Positions 1 through 4,003 of a stretch of 7,503 bases of DNA are shown here, one piece after another. The stretch lies in the NCBI GenBank assembly GCA_028868395.1, contig JAGWUO010000049.1:1-7503 (forward strand), written 5' to 3'. Numbering within the stretch: the stretch's first letter is position 1; each line of letters opens with the position of its first letter. Origin of the DNA: Cytophagales bacterium. Its GTDB lineage: Bacteria > Bacteroidota > Bacteroidia > Cytophagales > Spirosomataceae. The notes below the pieces were generated by a model. It was not told the origin of the DNA and ran no database searches. It saw only the letters and a list, made by a program, of their open reading frames with translations. Position numbers and translations under genes: made by a program.

Positions 1-55
1 GCATTTTAGTCATCGCTTCGCGATTTAGTCGCCTTCGGCTTAGTCAATGGGCCAA

Positions 56-109
56 GCGACTAAACCTCGTAGAGGTGACTGAGTCCGCAGGACGACTAAG
101 CCGCAACGC
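56..109. repeat. 54-bp direct repeat, copy 1
   Basis: The bases are identical to 187-240, 131 bp away. The block spans three hairpins (arms ACCTC, GTCC, and the first part of GCCGC). The copies diverge immediately after, at 110 versus 241, where copy 1 has the base that breaks the third stem. This suggests array growth by block duplication followed by point change. Confidence 0.93.
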
Positions 110-186
110 CGCGACTAAACGACGCAGTCGTGACTAAATCGCACAGCGATGACTAAACGGCTCCGCCGTGACTAAACGGCTCCGCC

Positions 187-240
187 GCGACTAAACCTCG
201 TAGAGGTGACTGAGTCCGCAGGACGACTAAGCCGCAACGC
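187..240. repeat. 54-bp direct repeat, copy 2
   Basis: Second exact copy of 56-109. In this copy the third hairpin (231-243) is fully paired, GCCGC-AAC-GCGGC, while copy 1 has a mid-stem mismatch. The copy ends a few bases before the recF stop codon. Confidence 0.93.
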
Positions 241-245
241 GGCGA

Positions 246-1328
246 TTACAAAGAAATATAATGAATATTCCCCTTCAAATCCTTCAGCAATTTCTTCGTC
301 CTTTCTGGTCTAGCGTCGGTAATGAAGACTTGGCCAAAGTGCTCTTCTGCCATCATTTGGACCAAACGCTGGATGCGGCGGTCATCGAGTTTGTCGAAGA
401 TGTCGTCGAGGAGCAAGAGTGGTTTGCGGGGTTTAGCGGCAACAAGGGAATCGAATTGCGCGAGTTTGAGCGCAACAACGAAGGATTTTTGTTGCCCTTG
501 GGAGCCAAATTTGCGCAAGGAGTAGCCATTAATTTTAAAATCAAATTCATCTCGATGAATTCCGATGGATGTCCGCTGCGCGGACAAATCCAGCGGTTCC
601 GCGGCGCGCAGCGCCGCGTCTAAGCCCCCTGCTTCAAAGGTAGATTCGAGCTGAATATCGACGTCCTCGCGATCGTCTGAAAGTTTGGAATAATGAAATG
701 TAAAACTAGGCAAAAAGACCTCGAGGAATTCCTTTCGGGCTTTTGCAAGCGATTCCCCCAGTTCTACTAAGGGCGCGTGATAACTATCTAAATGGAGGCG
801 ATCGACCTGGCCACGTTCTGCGAATTGCTTTAGCAATACATTGCGTTGCTGTACGATACGGTTGTAACGTAATAATTGATCCAGAAAGTTGCGGTCGAGC
901 TGAGACATCATACCGTCAAAAAAACGGCGACGTTCTTCACTCCCCTCTCGTACTAAATCGGTGTCATGAGGGTCCATTAAAACCACCGGAAAATGGCCAA
1001 TGTGGTCCGCTAAGCGAGGATAGGGTTTGTCATCGCGGAGGAATTGCTTTTTGGCCCCCTTCTGAAAAACACAGGTAATCTGCGTTTCGCGATCCTGCGT
1101 ATCGACAAAATCTCCCTGCACTCTGAAAAAATCCTGCGTATGCTTGATGCAGAGCTGGTCCGAAATGCCCCTCGCGCTTTTGGTCATCGAAAGGAAATGG
1201 ATGGCGTCCAACAGATTCGTTTTCCCAATCCCGTTCTCCCCCACAATGCAATTAATCTCCGAAATAAAGCTAAATCTAGCCTCCTCATAGGATTTAAACT
1301 GATTTACCTGAAGAGATTTGAGATGCAT
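246..1328 (-). CDS. recF: DNA replication/repair protein RecF
   Basis: This is an ABC/SMC-like ATPase that binds gapped duplex DNA and, with RecO and RecR, helps load RecA at stalled or damaged forks; it acts in the cytoplasm. The 360-residue protein matches the usual RecF length. Visible motifs are the Walker A GENGIGKT (residues 30-37) after the typical start MHLKSLQVNQFKSYEE, the signature segment FGSQGQQKS (about 274-282), the Walker B LLLLDDIFDKLD (about 304-315), and a terminal ITDAR switch region. The ATG at 1328 is at the expected distance from Walker A. The gene diverges from pdhA. Its TAA stop lies in the degenerate last spacer of hairpin array 1, so its transcript would run straight into that array. 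No conventional terminator is seen. The gene looks intact. Confidence 0.97.
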   Translation of the reverse strand: MHLKSLQVNQFKSYEEARFSFISEINCIVGENGIGKTNLLDAIHFLSMTKSARGISDQLCIKHTQDFFRVQGDFVDTQDRETQITCVFQKGAKKQFLRDDKPYPRLADHIGHFPVVLMDPHDTDLVREGSEERRRFFDGMMSQLDRNFLDQLLRYNRIVQQRNVLLKQFAERGQVDRLHLDSYHAPLVELGESLAKARKEFLEVFLPSFTFHYSKLSDDREDVDIQLESTFEAGGLDAALRAAEPLDLSAQRTSIGIHRDEFDFKINGYSLRKFGSQGQQKSFVVALKLAQFDSLVAAKPRKPLLLLDDIFDKLDDRRIQRLVQMMAEEHFGQVFITDARPERTKKLLKDLKGNIHYISL

Positions 1329-1441: not shown

Positions 1442-2452
1442 ATGGCAAAGAAAAACGCAGACGCGCCCAAGTATTCTAAAGAGACTTACAAGTATTGGTA
1501 CGAATCCATGCAATTACAACGCAAGTTCGAAGAGAAATGCGGTCAGTTGTACGGAATGCAGAAAATTAAAGGCTTTTGTCACTTATATATTGGACAAGAG
1601 GCTTGTTCTTCTGGTTCAAAATCTGCCCTACAAGAAGGCGATAAATACATCACAGCGTATCGTGACCACGGTATCCCTTTGGCCTTAGGAACCTCTCCTA
1701 ACGCAATTATGGCGGAATTATACGGTAAAATCACCGGTGCTTCGAAAGGAAAAGGTGGCTCCATGCACATCTTCGATAAAGAAGTAGGTTTTGTAGGTGG
1801 CCATGGTATCGTAGGGGCTCAAATCCCGTTAGGTGCTGGTCTTGCCTTCGCCGAGAAATACAATAAAACAGGTAACGTTTCGATCACGTATTTTGGTGAC
1901 GGAGCAGTTCGTCAAGGTGCTTTACACGAGGCATTTAACATGGCGATGACTTGGAAATTACCGGCAATTTTCGTCGTAGAAAATAACGGTTACGCGATGG
2001 GAACTTCCGTGGCACGTACATCTAACGTTACTGAACTTTACAAAATCGGTGAGGCATACGATATGCCTTCTGAGCCGGTGGATGCCATGAATGTGGAAGC
2101 GGTTCACGAGGCGGTATCTCGTGCAGCAGCTAGAGCTCGTGCCGGAGAAGGTCCTACTTTCTTAGAATTCAGAACCTACCGTTACAGAGGTCACTCGATG
2201 TCTGATCCACAAAAATACCGTTCTAAAGAAGAGGTAGAGGCTTACAAAGACCGTGACCCTATCGAACAAGTGAAACACACGATCTTAACGCACAATATCT
2301 TAACGCAAGCAGAATTAGACGAGATCGATGCTAAAATCAAGGTTCAAGTTCAAGAATCAGTTGACTTTGCAGAAGCATCTCCTTTCCCAGATAAATCGGA
2401 GGCTTACAAAGATGTGTATGTCGAAGAGAATTATCCTTTTATAGAGGAATAG
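1442..2452 (+). CDS. pdhA: Pyruvate dehydrogenase E1 component, alpha subunit
   Basis: This is the thiamine-diphosphate-dependent E1-alpha subunit. With E1-beta it decarboxylates pyruvate and transfers the acetyl group to the E2 lipoyl arm in the cytoplasmic pyruvate dehydrogenase complex. The 336 residues show the family pattern throughout: RDHG (74-77), KGKGGSMHIF (102-111), the ThDP/Mg motif starting GDG (152-154) and ending ENN (180-182), and the active-site loop YRYRGHSMSDP (246-256). Related branched-chain oxoacid E1-alpha proteins share the fold, but this loop and the overall match favour pyruvate. No E1-beta gene is adjacent: the gene is followed at once by hairpin array 2 and a terminator, so it is probably transcribed alone from the promoter near 1376. 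The stop TAG is next to a second TAG that forms part of the first degenerate array spacer. Confidence 0.95.
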   Translation: MAKKNADAPKYSKETYKYWYESMQLQRKFEEKCGQLYGMQKIKGFCHLYIGQEACSSGSKSALQEGDKYITAYRDHGIPLALGTSPNAIMAELYGKITGASKGKGGSMHIFDKEVGFVGGHGIVGAQIPLGAGLAFAEKYNKTGNVSITYFGDGAVRQGALHEAFNMAMTWKLPAIFVVENNGYAMGTSVARTSNVTELYKIGEAYDMPSEPVDAMNVEAVHEAVSRAAARARAGEGPTFLEFRTYRYRGHSMSDPQKYRSKEEVEAYKDRDPIEQVKHTILTHNILTQAELDEIDAKIKVQVQESVDFAEASPFPDKSEAYKDVYVEENYPFIEE

Positions 2453-2524
2453 TAGCCGCGTTGCGGCAGTCGTCACTGCGTGACATAGTCGCCTTCGGCT
2501 TAGTCATCGCTTCGCGATTTAGTC
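2453..2524. repeat. Hairpin array 2, left part (after pdhA)
   Basis: Four hairpins sit in TTAGTC orientation: GCCGC-GTT-GCGGC (2455-2467), GTCAC-TGC-GTGAC (2472-2484), GCC-TTC-GGC (2491-2499) and ATCGC-TTC-GCGAT (2506-2518). Spacers are AGTC, ATAGTC, TTAGTC and TTAGTC. The first hairpin starts three bases after the pdhA stop codon, so any pdhA transcript carries all four in its 3' untranslated region before the terminator. The segment 2468-2525 is duplicated at 2583-2640 with three differences, two of them in loops. Confidence 0.93.
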
Positions 2525-2532
2525 AATAAGTC

Positions 2533-2567
2533 AAAAGCTCATTCGCTCCGCCGGATGGGCTTTTTTT
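2533..2567 (+). terminator. Rho-independent terminator of pdhA
   Basis: A 10-bp stem (2536-2545 with 2552-2561, including two G-T wobble pairs) closes a 6-base loop and is followed by seven T. The preceding A run (2533-2535) can extend the stem. It lies about 80 bp after the pdhA stop. Unlike the array units it has a long stem, a T tract and no GACTAA/TTAGTC flank. It interrupts array 2, so the array seems to have spread on both sides of an older terminator, or duplicated around it. Confidence 0.88.
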
Positions 2568-2571
2568 ATGT

Positions 2572-2677
2572 CGCTTCGCGTCAGTCGTCACTTCGTGACT
2601 TAGTCGCCTGCGGCTTAGTCATCGCTTCGCGATTTAGTCACGACTATGTCGTTTAGTCGCTGCTTCGCAGCTTAGTC
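2572..2677. repeat. Hairpin array 2, right part (after the four-helix-bundle gene)
   Basis: Six hairpins sit in TTAGTC orientation: CGC-TTC-GCG (2572-2580), GTCAC-TTC-GTGAC (2587-2599), GCC-TGC-GGC (2606-2614), ATCGC-TTC-GCGAT (2621-2633), ACGAC-TAT-GTCGT (2640-2652) and GCTGC-TTC-GCAGC (2659-2671). All are fully paired. The spacers are TCAGTC once and TTAGTC otherwise. The last TTAGTC (2672-2677) overlaps the TGA stop of the minus-strand gene that follows. In that gene's transcript the units would read GACTAA with GAA-type loops. Confidence 0.93.
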
Positions 2678-3044
2678 AATTCAATCGATGACCATTTTTA
2701 TCAAGAACTCGAATAAAACTCTTAAGCATAAGAGAGATTTCTACTAAGTCTTTTTGCAATTGATTTGCCTCTTCTTGTGATACATAATTTAATTGAAGAG
2801 CCATATACATCATCGATTTAACTTCACTACATGATCCTAAAGAGATGAATAAAAAACGTCGAAAATCAGCATCTGAACCTCTTTCAAAACCCTCAGCTAT
2901 ATTATTAGAAATAGAGACTGATGCCCGCTGTATTTGGTTTTTAAATCCATAATCGACATTAATCTGAAGTAGTTTATAAATCTTTATGGCGACGATTTGA
3001 GACTTCTTCCATGCCTCAATTTCTTCAAAGTGGTATATTCTCAT
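2676..3044 (-). CDS. Four-helix-bundle protein, 23S rRNA intervening-sequence protein family
   Basis: This 122-residue protein is all-helical by eye and carries the family hallmark QIQRASVSISNNIAEG (37-52) followed by GSDADFRRFLFISLGSCSEV (56-75). It matches the four-helix-bundle family first described as open reading frames in 23S rRNA intervening sequences; relatives (Avd) serve as nucleic-acid-binding helpers in diversity-generating retroelements. The cellular role of stand-alone members is not established. Members are small, basic, and form oligomeric barrels (family knowledge). Here the gene is complete and visibly AT-richer than its neighbours, a hint of separate origin. It stands alone between hairpin arrays 2 and 3, which face opposite ways. 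Its TGA stop lies partly in an array spacer. Bases 3045-3101 upstream hold no clear promoter. No reverse transcriptase or variable repeat is seen here. Confidence 0.9.
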   Translation of the reverse strand: MRIYHFEEIEAWKKSQIVAIKIYKLLQINVDYGFKNQIQRASVSISNNIAEGFERGSDADFRRFLFISLGSCSEVKSMMYMALQLNYVSQEEANQLQKDLVEISLMLKSFIRVLDKNGHRLN

Positions 3045-3101: not shown

Positions 3102-3339
3102 GACTAAGCCGTAGGCGACTAAATCGCGAAGCGATGACTAAGTGACGCAGTCACGACTAAACTGCAAAGCAGTGACTAAATCGCAAAGCGATGACTAAAC
3201 TGCGAAGCAGTGACTAAACGACACAGTCGTGACTAAATCGCGAATCGATGACTAAACGACACAGTCGTGACTAAATCGCGAAGCGATGACTAAGTGACGC
3301 AGTCACGACTCTTTGACTAAGCCGTGAAACGGCGACTAA
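3102..3339. repeat. Hairpin array 3 (upstream of pxpA), 19-bp period
   Basis: This is the most regular array, with twelve hairpins in GACTAA orientation. From 3117 to 3306 it keeps an exact 19-bp period (6-bp spacer plus 13-bp hairpin) for ten units. The 5' arms in order are GCC, ATCGC, GTGAC, ACTGC, ATCGC, ACTGC, ACGAC, ATCGC, ACGAC, ATCGC, GTGAC and GCCGT. The loops are GTA, GAA, GCA, AAA, AAA, GAA, ACA, GAA, ACA, GAA, GCA and GAA. Only the hairpin at 3237-3249 has a mismatch (at the closing pair). Bases 3117-3158 recur exactly at 3269-3310, eight periods away. The last GACTAA (3334-3339) is separated from the pxpA ATG by one base. Confidence 0.95.
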
Positions 3340-3340
3340 T

Positions 3341-4003
3341 ATGACTATAAACTGCGACCTTGGCGAAGGCATTGGAAATGATGCCGCACTCATGCCCTAC
3401 ATCGACGAAGCAAATATTGCCTGCGGATTTCATGCCGGAGATGCTTTTACCATGCGCGAAACGGTAGCTTTGTGTATACGCCATGGCGTAAAAATGGGAG
3501 CACATCCGTCCTATTTAGATCGGGAGAATTTTGGGCGAAAAGAGATTGAATTGAGTTCTGAAGAGATCTATTTGCTGGTGAAAAAGCAGATAGAGACACT
3601 GAATCAAATTGTAAAAACTGCAGGAGGAACGCTAAATCACGTGAAGCCACATGGTGCCTTGTATAATACTTCGGCTAAAAATCCTGAAATCGCAAAGGCC
3701 ATTGCGAAAGCGGTAAAGGATGTGAATGGAGGGTTGATTTTATTCGGTCTGAAAGGCAGTCTGTCAATCGAGGTCGCACAGGAAATGGGCCTAAAAATCG
3801 CAGAAGAGGCTTTCGCGGATCGACGCTATGAAAGTGATGGAACCTTAACTCCGCGCAGTCAGCTAGGAGCATGCTTTACAGAGGTTAAAGATGTCTTAAA
3901 TCAGGTGGAAAAAATAAAGGCCGACACCTGGTGTATTCACGGTGACGGCCCTCATGCGTTGGAATTCGCGAAAGCTTTACACAGCCTTAAAACTCCACGA
4001 TAA
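3341..4003 (+). CDS. pxpA: 5-oxoprolinase subunit A (LamB/YcsF family)
   Basis: PxpA acts with PxpB and PxpC to hydrolyse 5-oxoproline (pyroglutamate) to glutamate using ATP, clearing a damage product of glutamine and glutamate in the cytoplasm. Family motifs appear in order: CDLGEG (5-10), NIACGFHAGD (25-34), GAHPSYLDRENFGR (53-66), HVKPHGALYN (100-109), EEAFADRRY (155-163), PRSQLGA (171-177) and HGDGPHAL (200-207). The 220 residues are somewhat shorter than the roughly 245 of E. coli PxpA; the difference lies mainly between PRSQLGA and HGDG and looks like a shorter loop, not damage. The ATG at 3341 is the natural start because it leads directly into the first motif. No ribosome-binding site is visible: the preceding bases are the last GACTAA of array 3. 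No pxpB or pxpC is beside it. The 3' end overlaps the receptor gene tail to tail by 17 bp. Confidence 0.94.
   Translation: MTINCDLGEGIGNDAALMPYIDEANIACGFHAGDAFTMRETVALCIRHGVKMGAHPSYLDRENFGRKEIELSSEEIYLLVKKQIETLNQIVKTAGGTLNHVKPHGALYNTSAKNPEIAKAIAKAVKDVNGGLILFGLKGSLSIEVAQEMGLKIAEEAFADRRYESDGTLTPRSQLGACFTEVKDVLNQVEKIKADTWCIHGDGPHALEFAKALHSLKTPR

Follow-up and report, generated by a model that had tools for sequence, protein, structure and literature searches.

The three arrays of short hairpins in the window, by which the whole 7,503-bp stretch of DNA analysed is meant, are on balance probably clade-specific, mostly non-coding repeats of a REP-like (REPIN/BIME-like) kind, whose working form would be a DNA mini-hairpin, single-stranded or extruded, formed by the GACTAA strand. 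Each unit is composed of a constant 5' GACTAA tag, a stem of 3-5 bp that may be spelled with any letters as long as they pair, and a three-base loop that is closed by C-G, begins with a purine and ends in A, and follows this rule more strictly as the stem shortens.

Arrays 1, 2 and 3 (6-243, 2455-2677 and 3102-3339) occupy gaps between the genes of the window, which also codes for a TonB-plug receptor and an ALO-type oxidase besides the genes given in Table 1. In the units, GACTAA is followed by a palindrome of 9, 11 or 13 bp (arms of 3, 4 or 5 bases and a loop of 3), and the tag variants GACCAA, GACTGA, GACTCA and GACTTA were also seen. The first-pass annotation had counted 11 of 12 hairpins as fully paired at 3102-3339 and 31 of 34 over the three arrays, and both counts were reproduced (10/12 in array 1, by script; 10/10 in array 2, by eye and with variant-tag units included; 11/12 in array 3). 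The sole imperfect hairpin of array 3, at 3231-3249, has one mismatch, and GACTCTTT stands in place of one junction at 3307-3314. Of the traits said to be common to all units, the length of 13 bp is not universal, since array 3 opens with a 9-bp unit (3-3-3) and 11-bp units (4-3-4) are present in array 1. Array 2 contains a terminator-like stem with a T run at approximately 2533-2567, and there is an overlap between its final tag and the S23 stop. Comparison of the window with Rfam at the gathering score gave no matches, and a tRNA search of the window gave nothing. Inside recF (600-618, + strand) there is a perfect hairpin that is longer and has a GCA loop; by eye, a similar one with a GAA loop on that strand occurs in the carriers G028 and G002, and it is missing in the non-carriers L128 and L131.

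Table 1. Coordinates of the hairpin arrays and neighbouring genes in the window.
Feature	Position	Strand	Description
Array 1, left arm	6..45	-	GACTAA units with ATCGC-GAA-GCGAT and GCC-GAA-GGC hairpins
Array 1, right arm	58..243	+	10 units, 2 of them imperfect (94, 170); recF stop codon 2 bp from its end
recF-like gene	246..1328	-	SMC_N / AAA domains; adjoins array 1
Pyruvate dehydrogenase E1 alpha-type gene (pdhA-like)	1442..2452	+	E1_dh; gene used for clade placement
Array 2	2455..2677	-	Starts 2 bp past the pdhA stop codon
S23 gene (23S_rRNA_IVP, four-helix bundle)	2676..3044	-	Between the inverted arrays 2 and 3
Array 3	3102..3339	+	12 hairpins (eleven 5-3-5 and an opening 3-3-3), of which 11 pair fully; ends just before the pxpA start codon
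LamB/YcsF (pxpA-like) gene	3341..4003	+	ATG; array 3 directly upstream

Pairing between the two arms exceeded that expected by chance. For 24 units of the window, each 19 bp long and 17 of them distinct, standard pairs filled 96.5% of the cells as compared to a shuffled mean of 71.3% (0 of 500 shuffles as high), and the covariation score was 0.847, against 0.333 after shuffling and 0.028-0.305 when partners were slid by 1-3 columns; the slides preserve the relatedness of the units, whereas the shuffles do not. All five pairs changed on both sides among these 24 units, in line with the earlier claim that the arms vary together. Among 117 distinct 13-mers of the pooled loci, 93.5% of the cells were Watson-Crick compared to 52.9% after shuffling (maximum 59.0% in 2000), 82 sequences being perfect and 32 having one mismatch. 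After removal of 187 of 675 pooled units, from loci without any perfect unit, perfect units accounted for 302 of 341 at 13 bp, 38 of 43 at 11 bp and 74 of 77 at 9 bp, and 27 further pooled units of other lengths were mostly unpaired by the same measure. The stem sequence itself is not conserved, with 24 stem words among the 302 perfect 13-bp units. The pairing counts, together with the shuffle and slide controls, rule out an ordinary tandem repeat. The idea of the first-pass annotation that the hairpin is maintained while its sequence varies is thus upheld: shuffles and slid partners abolish pairing, and the high proportion of perfect 13-bp units in the pooled loci goes against stem arms that mutate independently.

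The loop followed a rule on the GACTAA strand. Perfect 13-bp units were closed by C-G in 299 of 302 cases and had an R-N-A loop in 256 and a G-N-A loop in 202, and the perfect 9- and 11-bp units were closed by C-G in 112 of 112 and had G-N-A in 110. The excess of G-N-A in the shorter-stem units (Fisher P = 7e-14, calculated on units that are not independent) was also seen among distinct sequences, with 18 of 20 for the 9- and 11-bp units vs 31 of 82 for the 13-bp units. A stricter loop on a shorter stem is expected if hairpin stability is kept, because a short stem needs the best loop. Under a stricter definition of the unit, 97 units in bases 1-2,000,000 of the genome G018 showed 24 arm sequences of 3-5 bp and the loops GAA (46), GCA (16), GTA (12), AAA (6) and others. 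Mismatches were skewed too: the 32 distinct one-mismatch 13-mers, read on the GACTAA strand, gave 15 G.T vs 5 A.C (binomial P = 0.041; 20 words). Together, the loop rule, its C-G closing pair and the G.T skew suggest that it is the GACTAA strand which folds. Part of the loop rule could be inherited rather than selected. The predicted DNA stability was near-equal between the strands (-6.8 vs -6.5 and -7.0 vs -6.4 kcal/mol), and the whole 239-base strand was predicted, both as DNA and as RNA, to adopt much longer-range pairing and not 12 separate hairpins.

Loops of the GNA type are described as giving exceptionally stable DNA mini-hairpins (PMC4686876), and extrusion of the phage N4 promoter hairpins is reported to need a loop-closing G:C pair and a loop with 5'G and 3'A, the non-conserved stem bases being free provided that the hairpin is kept (PMC4496689). 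The GACTAA units have the same C-G closing pair and a loop of the form 5'G...3'A and, with their free paired stems, resemble the promoter hairpins of the N4 virion RNA polymerase as described there, but they differ in forming chromosomal tandem arrays and in their flanks (PMC4496689).

A contig pattern scan for three tags at 19-bp spacing retrieved at least 119 stretches, of which 80 were titled and the 39 untitled were left unsorted. In this sorting by hand, among the matches listed, all 36 loci titled Cytophagaceae, Aquirufa or 'Spirosoma fluviale' MAG had at least one unit with 3-bp arms, and unrelated organisms contributed 44 loci with equal GACTAA spacing, of which 43 lacked any such unit. 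Within the genus of Aquirufa antheringensis (G001), a doublet pattern was detected in 18 of 38 genomes, ten of them with 20-99 matches and the other eight with 1-2, which does not exceed a reversed-pattern control (range up to 6). A tag-free pattern matched the same 10 of 38 genus genomes, and a looped pattern matched 10 of 222 family genomes, the remaining 212 giving none. In the pdhA tree (15 rows; two carriers without a pdhA match were left out), eight carriers and the window split from six non-carriers (100/99), and the window pdhA is 95% identical to that of G018. From the pattern counts and the pdhA tree, the GACTAA array family is restricted to one freshwater clade of Aquirufa among the genomes searched. 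Its units occur at many loci in 10 species-level genomes; confinement to this locus in one strain, which the first-pass annotation had singled out as damaging to the idea of a maintained hairpin, was thus not observed. BLAST of the array against 50,697 phage and 72,556 plasmid records gave no match and the three matches of a viral contig pattern scan were all unpaired, so a phage or plasmid origin was set aside.

The location of the units was analysed in G018, a single contig of 2,505,188 bp, over bases 1-2,000,000, with ORFs that were called by length and are not annotated genes. This census revealed 104 units, 100 in 23 inter-ORF gaps and 4 in one ORF. The array gaps were 11 convergent, 11 tandem and 1 divergent, compared to 93, 259 and 198, respectively, for all gaps above 60 bp, and thus convergent gaps were enriched (Fisher P = 0.0004) and divergent gaps depleted (Fisher P = 0.0006). 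Among 31 blocks, 23 faced a stop codon and 8 a start, and 27 were closer to the gene toward which their GACTAA strand points. The stop codon was TAG in 7 of the 10 cases where a unit started no more than 8 nt away, as compared to 365 of 1,654 ORFs overall (P = 0.0016), and these array-adjacent TAG stops were part of an edge TTAGTC or TAGTC. The predominance of stop-facing blocks and the skew toward convergent and away from divergent gaps would suit a function at the RNA level, with 3'-UTR hairpins that are under selection in the transcript of UUAGUC sense and either shield the ends of mRNAs or influence termination. We consider such a role unlikely, however, given the 8 blocks that face starts and the 4 units inside one ORF, and because the structured loop and the G.T skew sit on the strand opposite to the mRNA, which at stop-facing blocks carries the complement of the GACTAA strand. 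Nor do the stems look like intrinsic terminators, in which a U run follows the stem: what follows the array stems is the tag or its complement (GACTAA or TTAGTC) and not a T run, and a terminator-like stem with a T run is still found in or after the pdhA array of the window and of G018. In addition, an array is lacking from the pdhA-pxpA gap of the carrier G008, and G006 and G028 show none in the approximately 450 bases read past pdhA.

Two-sided clusters had a fixed polarity. With a gap of 400 bp, the minus block lay to the left of the plus block in 8 of 8 clusters of G018, in the single cluster of the window and in 34 of 34 other loci, a total of 43 of 43 that includes many orthologous loci and so counts not all independent cases. 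The same minus-plus order is shown by arrays 2 and 3 of the window, which flank the S23 gene, and under a 1500-bp grouping one G018 group runs plus then minus, around two genes. A single cluster order is what a head-to-head founder pair would give, whereas both orders would be expected if single units had inserted independently. In REPINs and BIMEs, inverted pairs recur and mosaics are found in intergenic space, and the GACTAA clusters are like them in both respects. They are unlike them in that the two arms do not carry mirrored stems which could pair into one long hairpin: stem identity at mirror positions, counted from the cluster centre, was 4 of 90 against a null mean of 8.7. Folding of the two cluster arms as one long hairpin was accordingly unsupported, with a tendency toward too few shared stems (22 vs 28.2 by chance, P = 0.055).

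Neighbouring units tended to differ. In the pooled loci, adjacent units had an identical stem in 4 of 300 pairs (2 of the 4 being artefacts of imperfect units) vs 20.6 expected and a minimum of 10 in 2000 within-chain shuffles; in G018 and the window alone, the avoidance was not significant (1 of 43 vs 3.3 expected, P = 0.13). It may result from deletion between close direct repeats or from selection for independent folding. Stem identity rose at a unit separation of 3 (27 of 104), which reveals clear local segment duplications, and hairpins beside direct repeats are known slippage substrates. Both points count for a purely mutational upkeep, by slippage and hairpin template switching (quasipalindrome correction), with neither selection nor a reader protein. 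This explanation is nevertheless improbable in our judgement. In 400 kb of G018, loop-3 hairpins with arms of at least 6 occurred at 280 per Mb vs 222 in one Markov simulation, a density that falls within the 198-315 obtained for loops of 2-8 and so represents no loop-3 excess; a genome-wide palindrome-perfecting process was unsupported in that sample with its one simulation. The shortage of identical neighbours in the pooled loci is the opposite of what neighbour copying would give, and mutational upkeep would account neither for the loop rule and its closing pair nor for the fixed polarity. Of the two causes put forward in the first-pass annotation, copying, whether from arm to arm as stated there or between neighbours, is thus disfavoured, and the evidence leans toward the folded strand being selected or used.

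Across species, orthologous gaps, at loci mostly picked for holding arrays, kept their arrays while the units changed. In the sister genomes G005 and G008 of the pdhA tree, the cassette array-S23-array is found at the pdhA-pxpA locus only in G005. At a second gap with 96-97% identical flanks, GACTAA arrays are present in G005, and inverted heptamer-like repeats plus a single tag in G008, a draft in which two contigs carry part of this flank. No clean recent insertion of a single unit was caught among the loci compared, and presence or absence at the pdhA locus may reflect replacement of a whole segment. The N-terminal region of a TolC-like protein (G018:C1 ~1471560-1471700) is a hotspot in which species differ in short repeats, and in G018 it was read through with the upstream CzcA-like gene (both named by eye). 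This N-terminus contains GACTAA units in G018, where the frame is open, and in G005 and G002, some GACTAA units plus other repeats in G007 and G008, and other short repeats in G001, G003, G006 and G028; none were found in the non-carriers L321, L322 and L325, and for L323 and L324 no alignment of this region was obtained.

The S23 gene lies between inverted arrays at the pdhA-pxpA locus of the window, G018, G003, G001 and G005, and by coordinates also of G002, and the array-S23 cassette is missing there in G008. S23 genes are also commoner in carriers (10 of 10, with 1-4 each) than in non-carriers (18 of 28, with 1-3 each; Fisher P = 0.04). An array pair and an S23 gene might on these grounds form a small composite mobile element with the S23 protein as mover, but this is very improbable: just one of the three S23 genes of G018 adjoins an array, no S23 gene accompanies the remaining array clusters within the first 2.0 Mb of this genome, and many non-carriers have S23 genes without arrays. 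The S23-free arrays and array-free S23 genes mostly refute the S23 protein as mover. The pdhA-pxpA gap is a hotspot of cassettes: besides S23 between arrays in some species, G008 and G028 carry a different small ORF there, and G006 carries one that by eye is nucleotidyltransferase-like.

Other repeats were observed in the same genomes. Bases 1-2,000,000 of G018 contain degenerate period-7 arrays of the types TTYACCA, YACTGNN, CTCTANN and KCTTTRT, at 26.5 per Mb vs at most 0.5 at six other periods tested, and two non-carriers (391 kb) have 5.1 per Mb. Period-7 neighbours of the same type and opposite orientation (within 300 bp) had one order in 15 of 15 pairs, 9 more pairs having the same orientation, and these unrelated repeats sometimes take up the same positions at gene edges, with matching inverted polarity. 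One more intergenic repeat is interspersed in these genomes: by eye, its palindrome TATTGACA...TGTCAATA precedes CTGAAAA and a stretch resembling GTGCCTCGAAG, with sites in G018 at ~1198552, 1388600, 1392950 and 1452920 and in L127. Short tandem intergenic repeats are known in cyanobacteria as STRRs. Intergenic heptamer repeats such as TAACTGA are described as short and tandem, abutting start or stop codons and patchy in Bacteroidetes (PMC4679880, MacGregor 2015). The GACTAA arrays are likewise short, tandem and intergenic and located at start or stop codons, but the heptamers are not built as hairpins (PMC4679880).

REP elements of the GTAG and CGTC superfamilies are described as a tag with a palindrome, with head-to-head dimers and a 3'-end bias; their termini supply TAG stops, some copies are intragenic, and many families prefer heterodimers, a preference left unexplained (PMC3733652, Di Nocera 2013). 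The GACTAA family resembles them in the unpaired tag beside a palindrome, the many dispersed and mostly intergenic copies (100 of 104 units outside called ORFs in 2.0 Mb of G018), the head-to-head pairs (43/43 two-sided clusters at the 400-bp gap), the TAG stops, the bias to 3' ends and to convergent or unidirectional gaps (23/31 blocks facing a stop), the heterodimer preference, some intragenic copies and the clusters, which REPs form in some species (PMC3733652). It is unlike them in its tag, which is GACTAA and not a terminal GTAG or CGTC, in stems of 3-5 bp without sequence conservation (24 words in 302 units), in 3-base loops, in long head-to-tail arrays and in that no Y1 transposase was found in carriers (PMC3733652). 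A Y1_Tnp transposase was detected at E 0.001 in none of 10 carriers, of unstated completeness, and in 12 of 28 non-carriers. Mobilisation by a resident RAYT/IS200 enzyme is therefore unsupported, and the mobiliser is either missing or unlike RAYT.

Group-3 REPs offer a comparison for the reading of the folded strand. Cleavage of a group-3 REP by TnpA_REP is reported to depend decisively on the tag and the first loop base, and stem mismatches affected or almost eliminated it, whereas the stem could be changed in blocks without drastic consequences (PMC8266576, Corneloup 2021). GACTAA units are like group-3 REPs, which are read as a single strand and strand-specifically, in having a perfect palindrome and a tag; they are unlike them in the tag used and in their lengths, and no TnpA_REP homologue was found in the 10 carriers (PMC8266576). 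In view of the mismatches in tag, stem conservation and transposase, the arrays were classified as working like REP/REPIN DNA and not as GTAG or CGTC members, and the best reading is that they work most like REP DNA but stand outside both families. The statement in the first-pass annotation that no named repeat family was recognised is correct as to membership, but it overlooked the match to REPs in the tag with a palindrome, the head-to-head pairs, the gene-end site and the TAG stops supplied by the tag. No earlier description of a GACTAA mini-hairpin family was found in a literature search, part of which was broad and says little.

Under the REP-like reading, a protein would recognise the tag, the loop and the shape on the folded strand, by analogy with TnpA_REP on group-3 REPs. 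If this reader is indifferent to the stem letters, stems could drift through compensated, mostly G.T, intermediates. The head-to-head pair would be the unit of dispersal, and arrays would then enlarge or shrink by local duplication and deletion, by which identical neighbours would be purged or disfavoured. A broader proposal, which we put forward only tentatively and regard as possible but rather doubtful, is that the identity of a repeat family is inherited as a DNA shape, that is, the tag and an extrudable C(RNA)G mini-hairpin, and that the stems diversify but remain unlike those next to them, which would let every hairpin fold by itself; period-7 repeats in the same slots and polarity would then suggest a single activity by which different repeat families are assembled into inverted arrays at gene boundaries.

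If the REP-like reading is true, the family would provide a natural dataset in which covariation reveals the formation of DNA hairpins, as it routinely does for RNA, and an example of a REP-like element in which shape is separable from sequence. With the stem freed while loop and pairing are kept, the needs of a REP-reading protein would become testable, as would the question of whether small DNA hairpins extrude in living chromosomes beyond phage N4. The avoidance of identical neighbours would also bear on why many REP families prefer heterodimers, a question that Di Nocera 2013 raised (PMC3733652).
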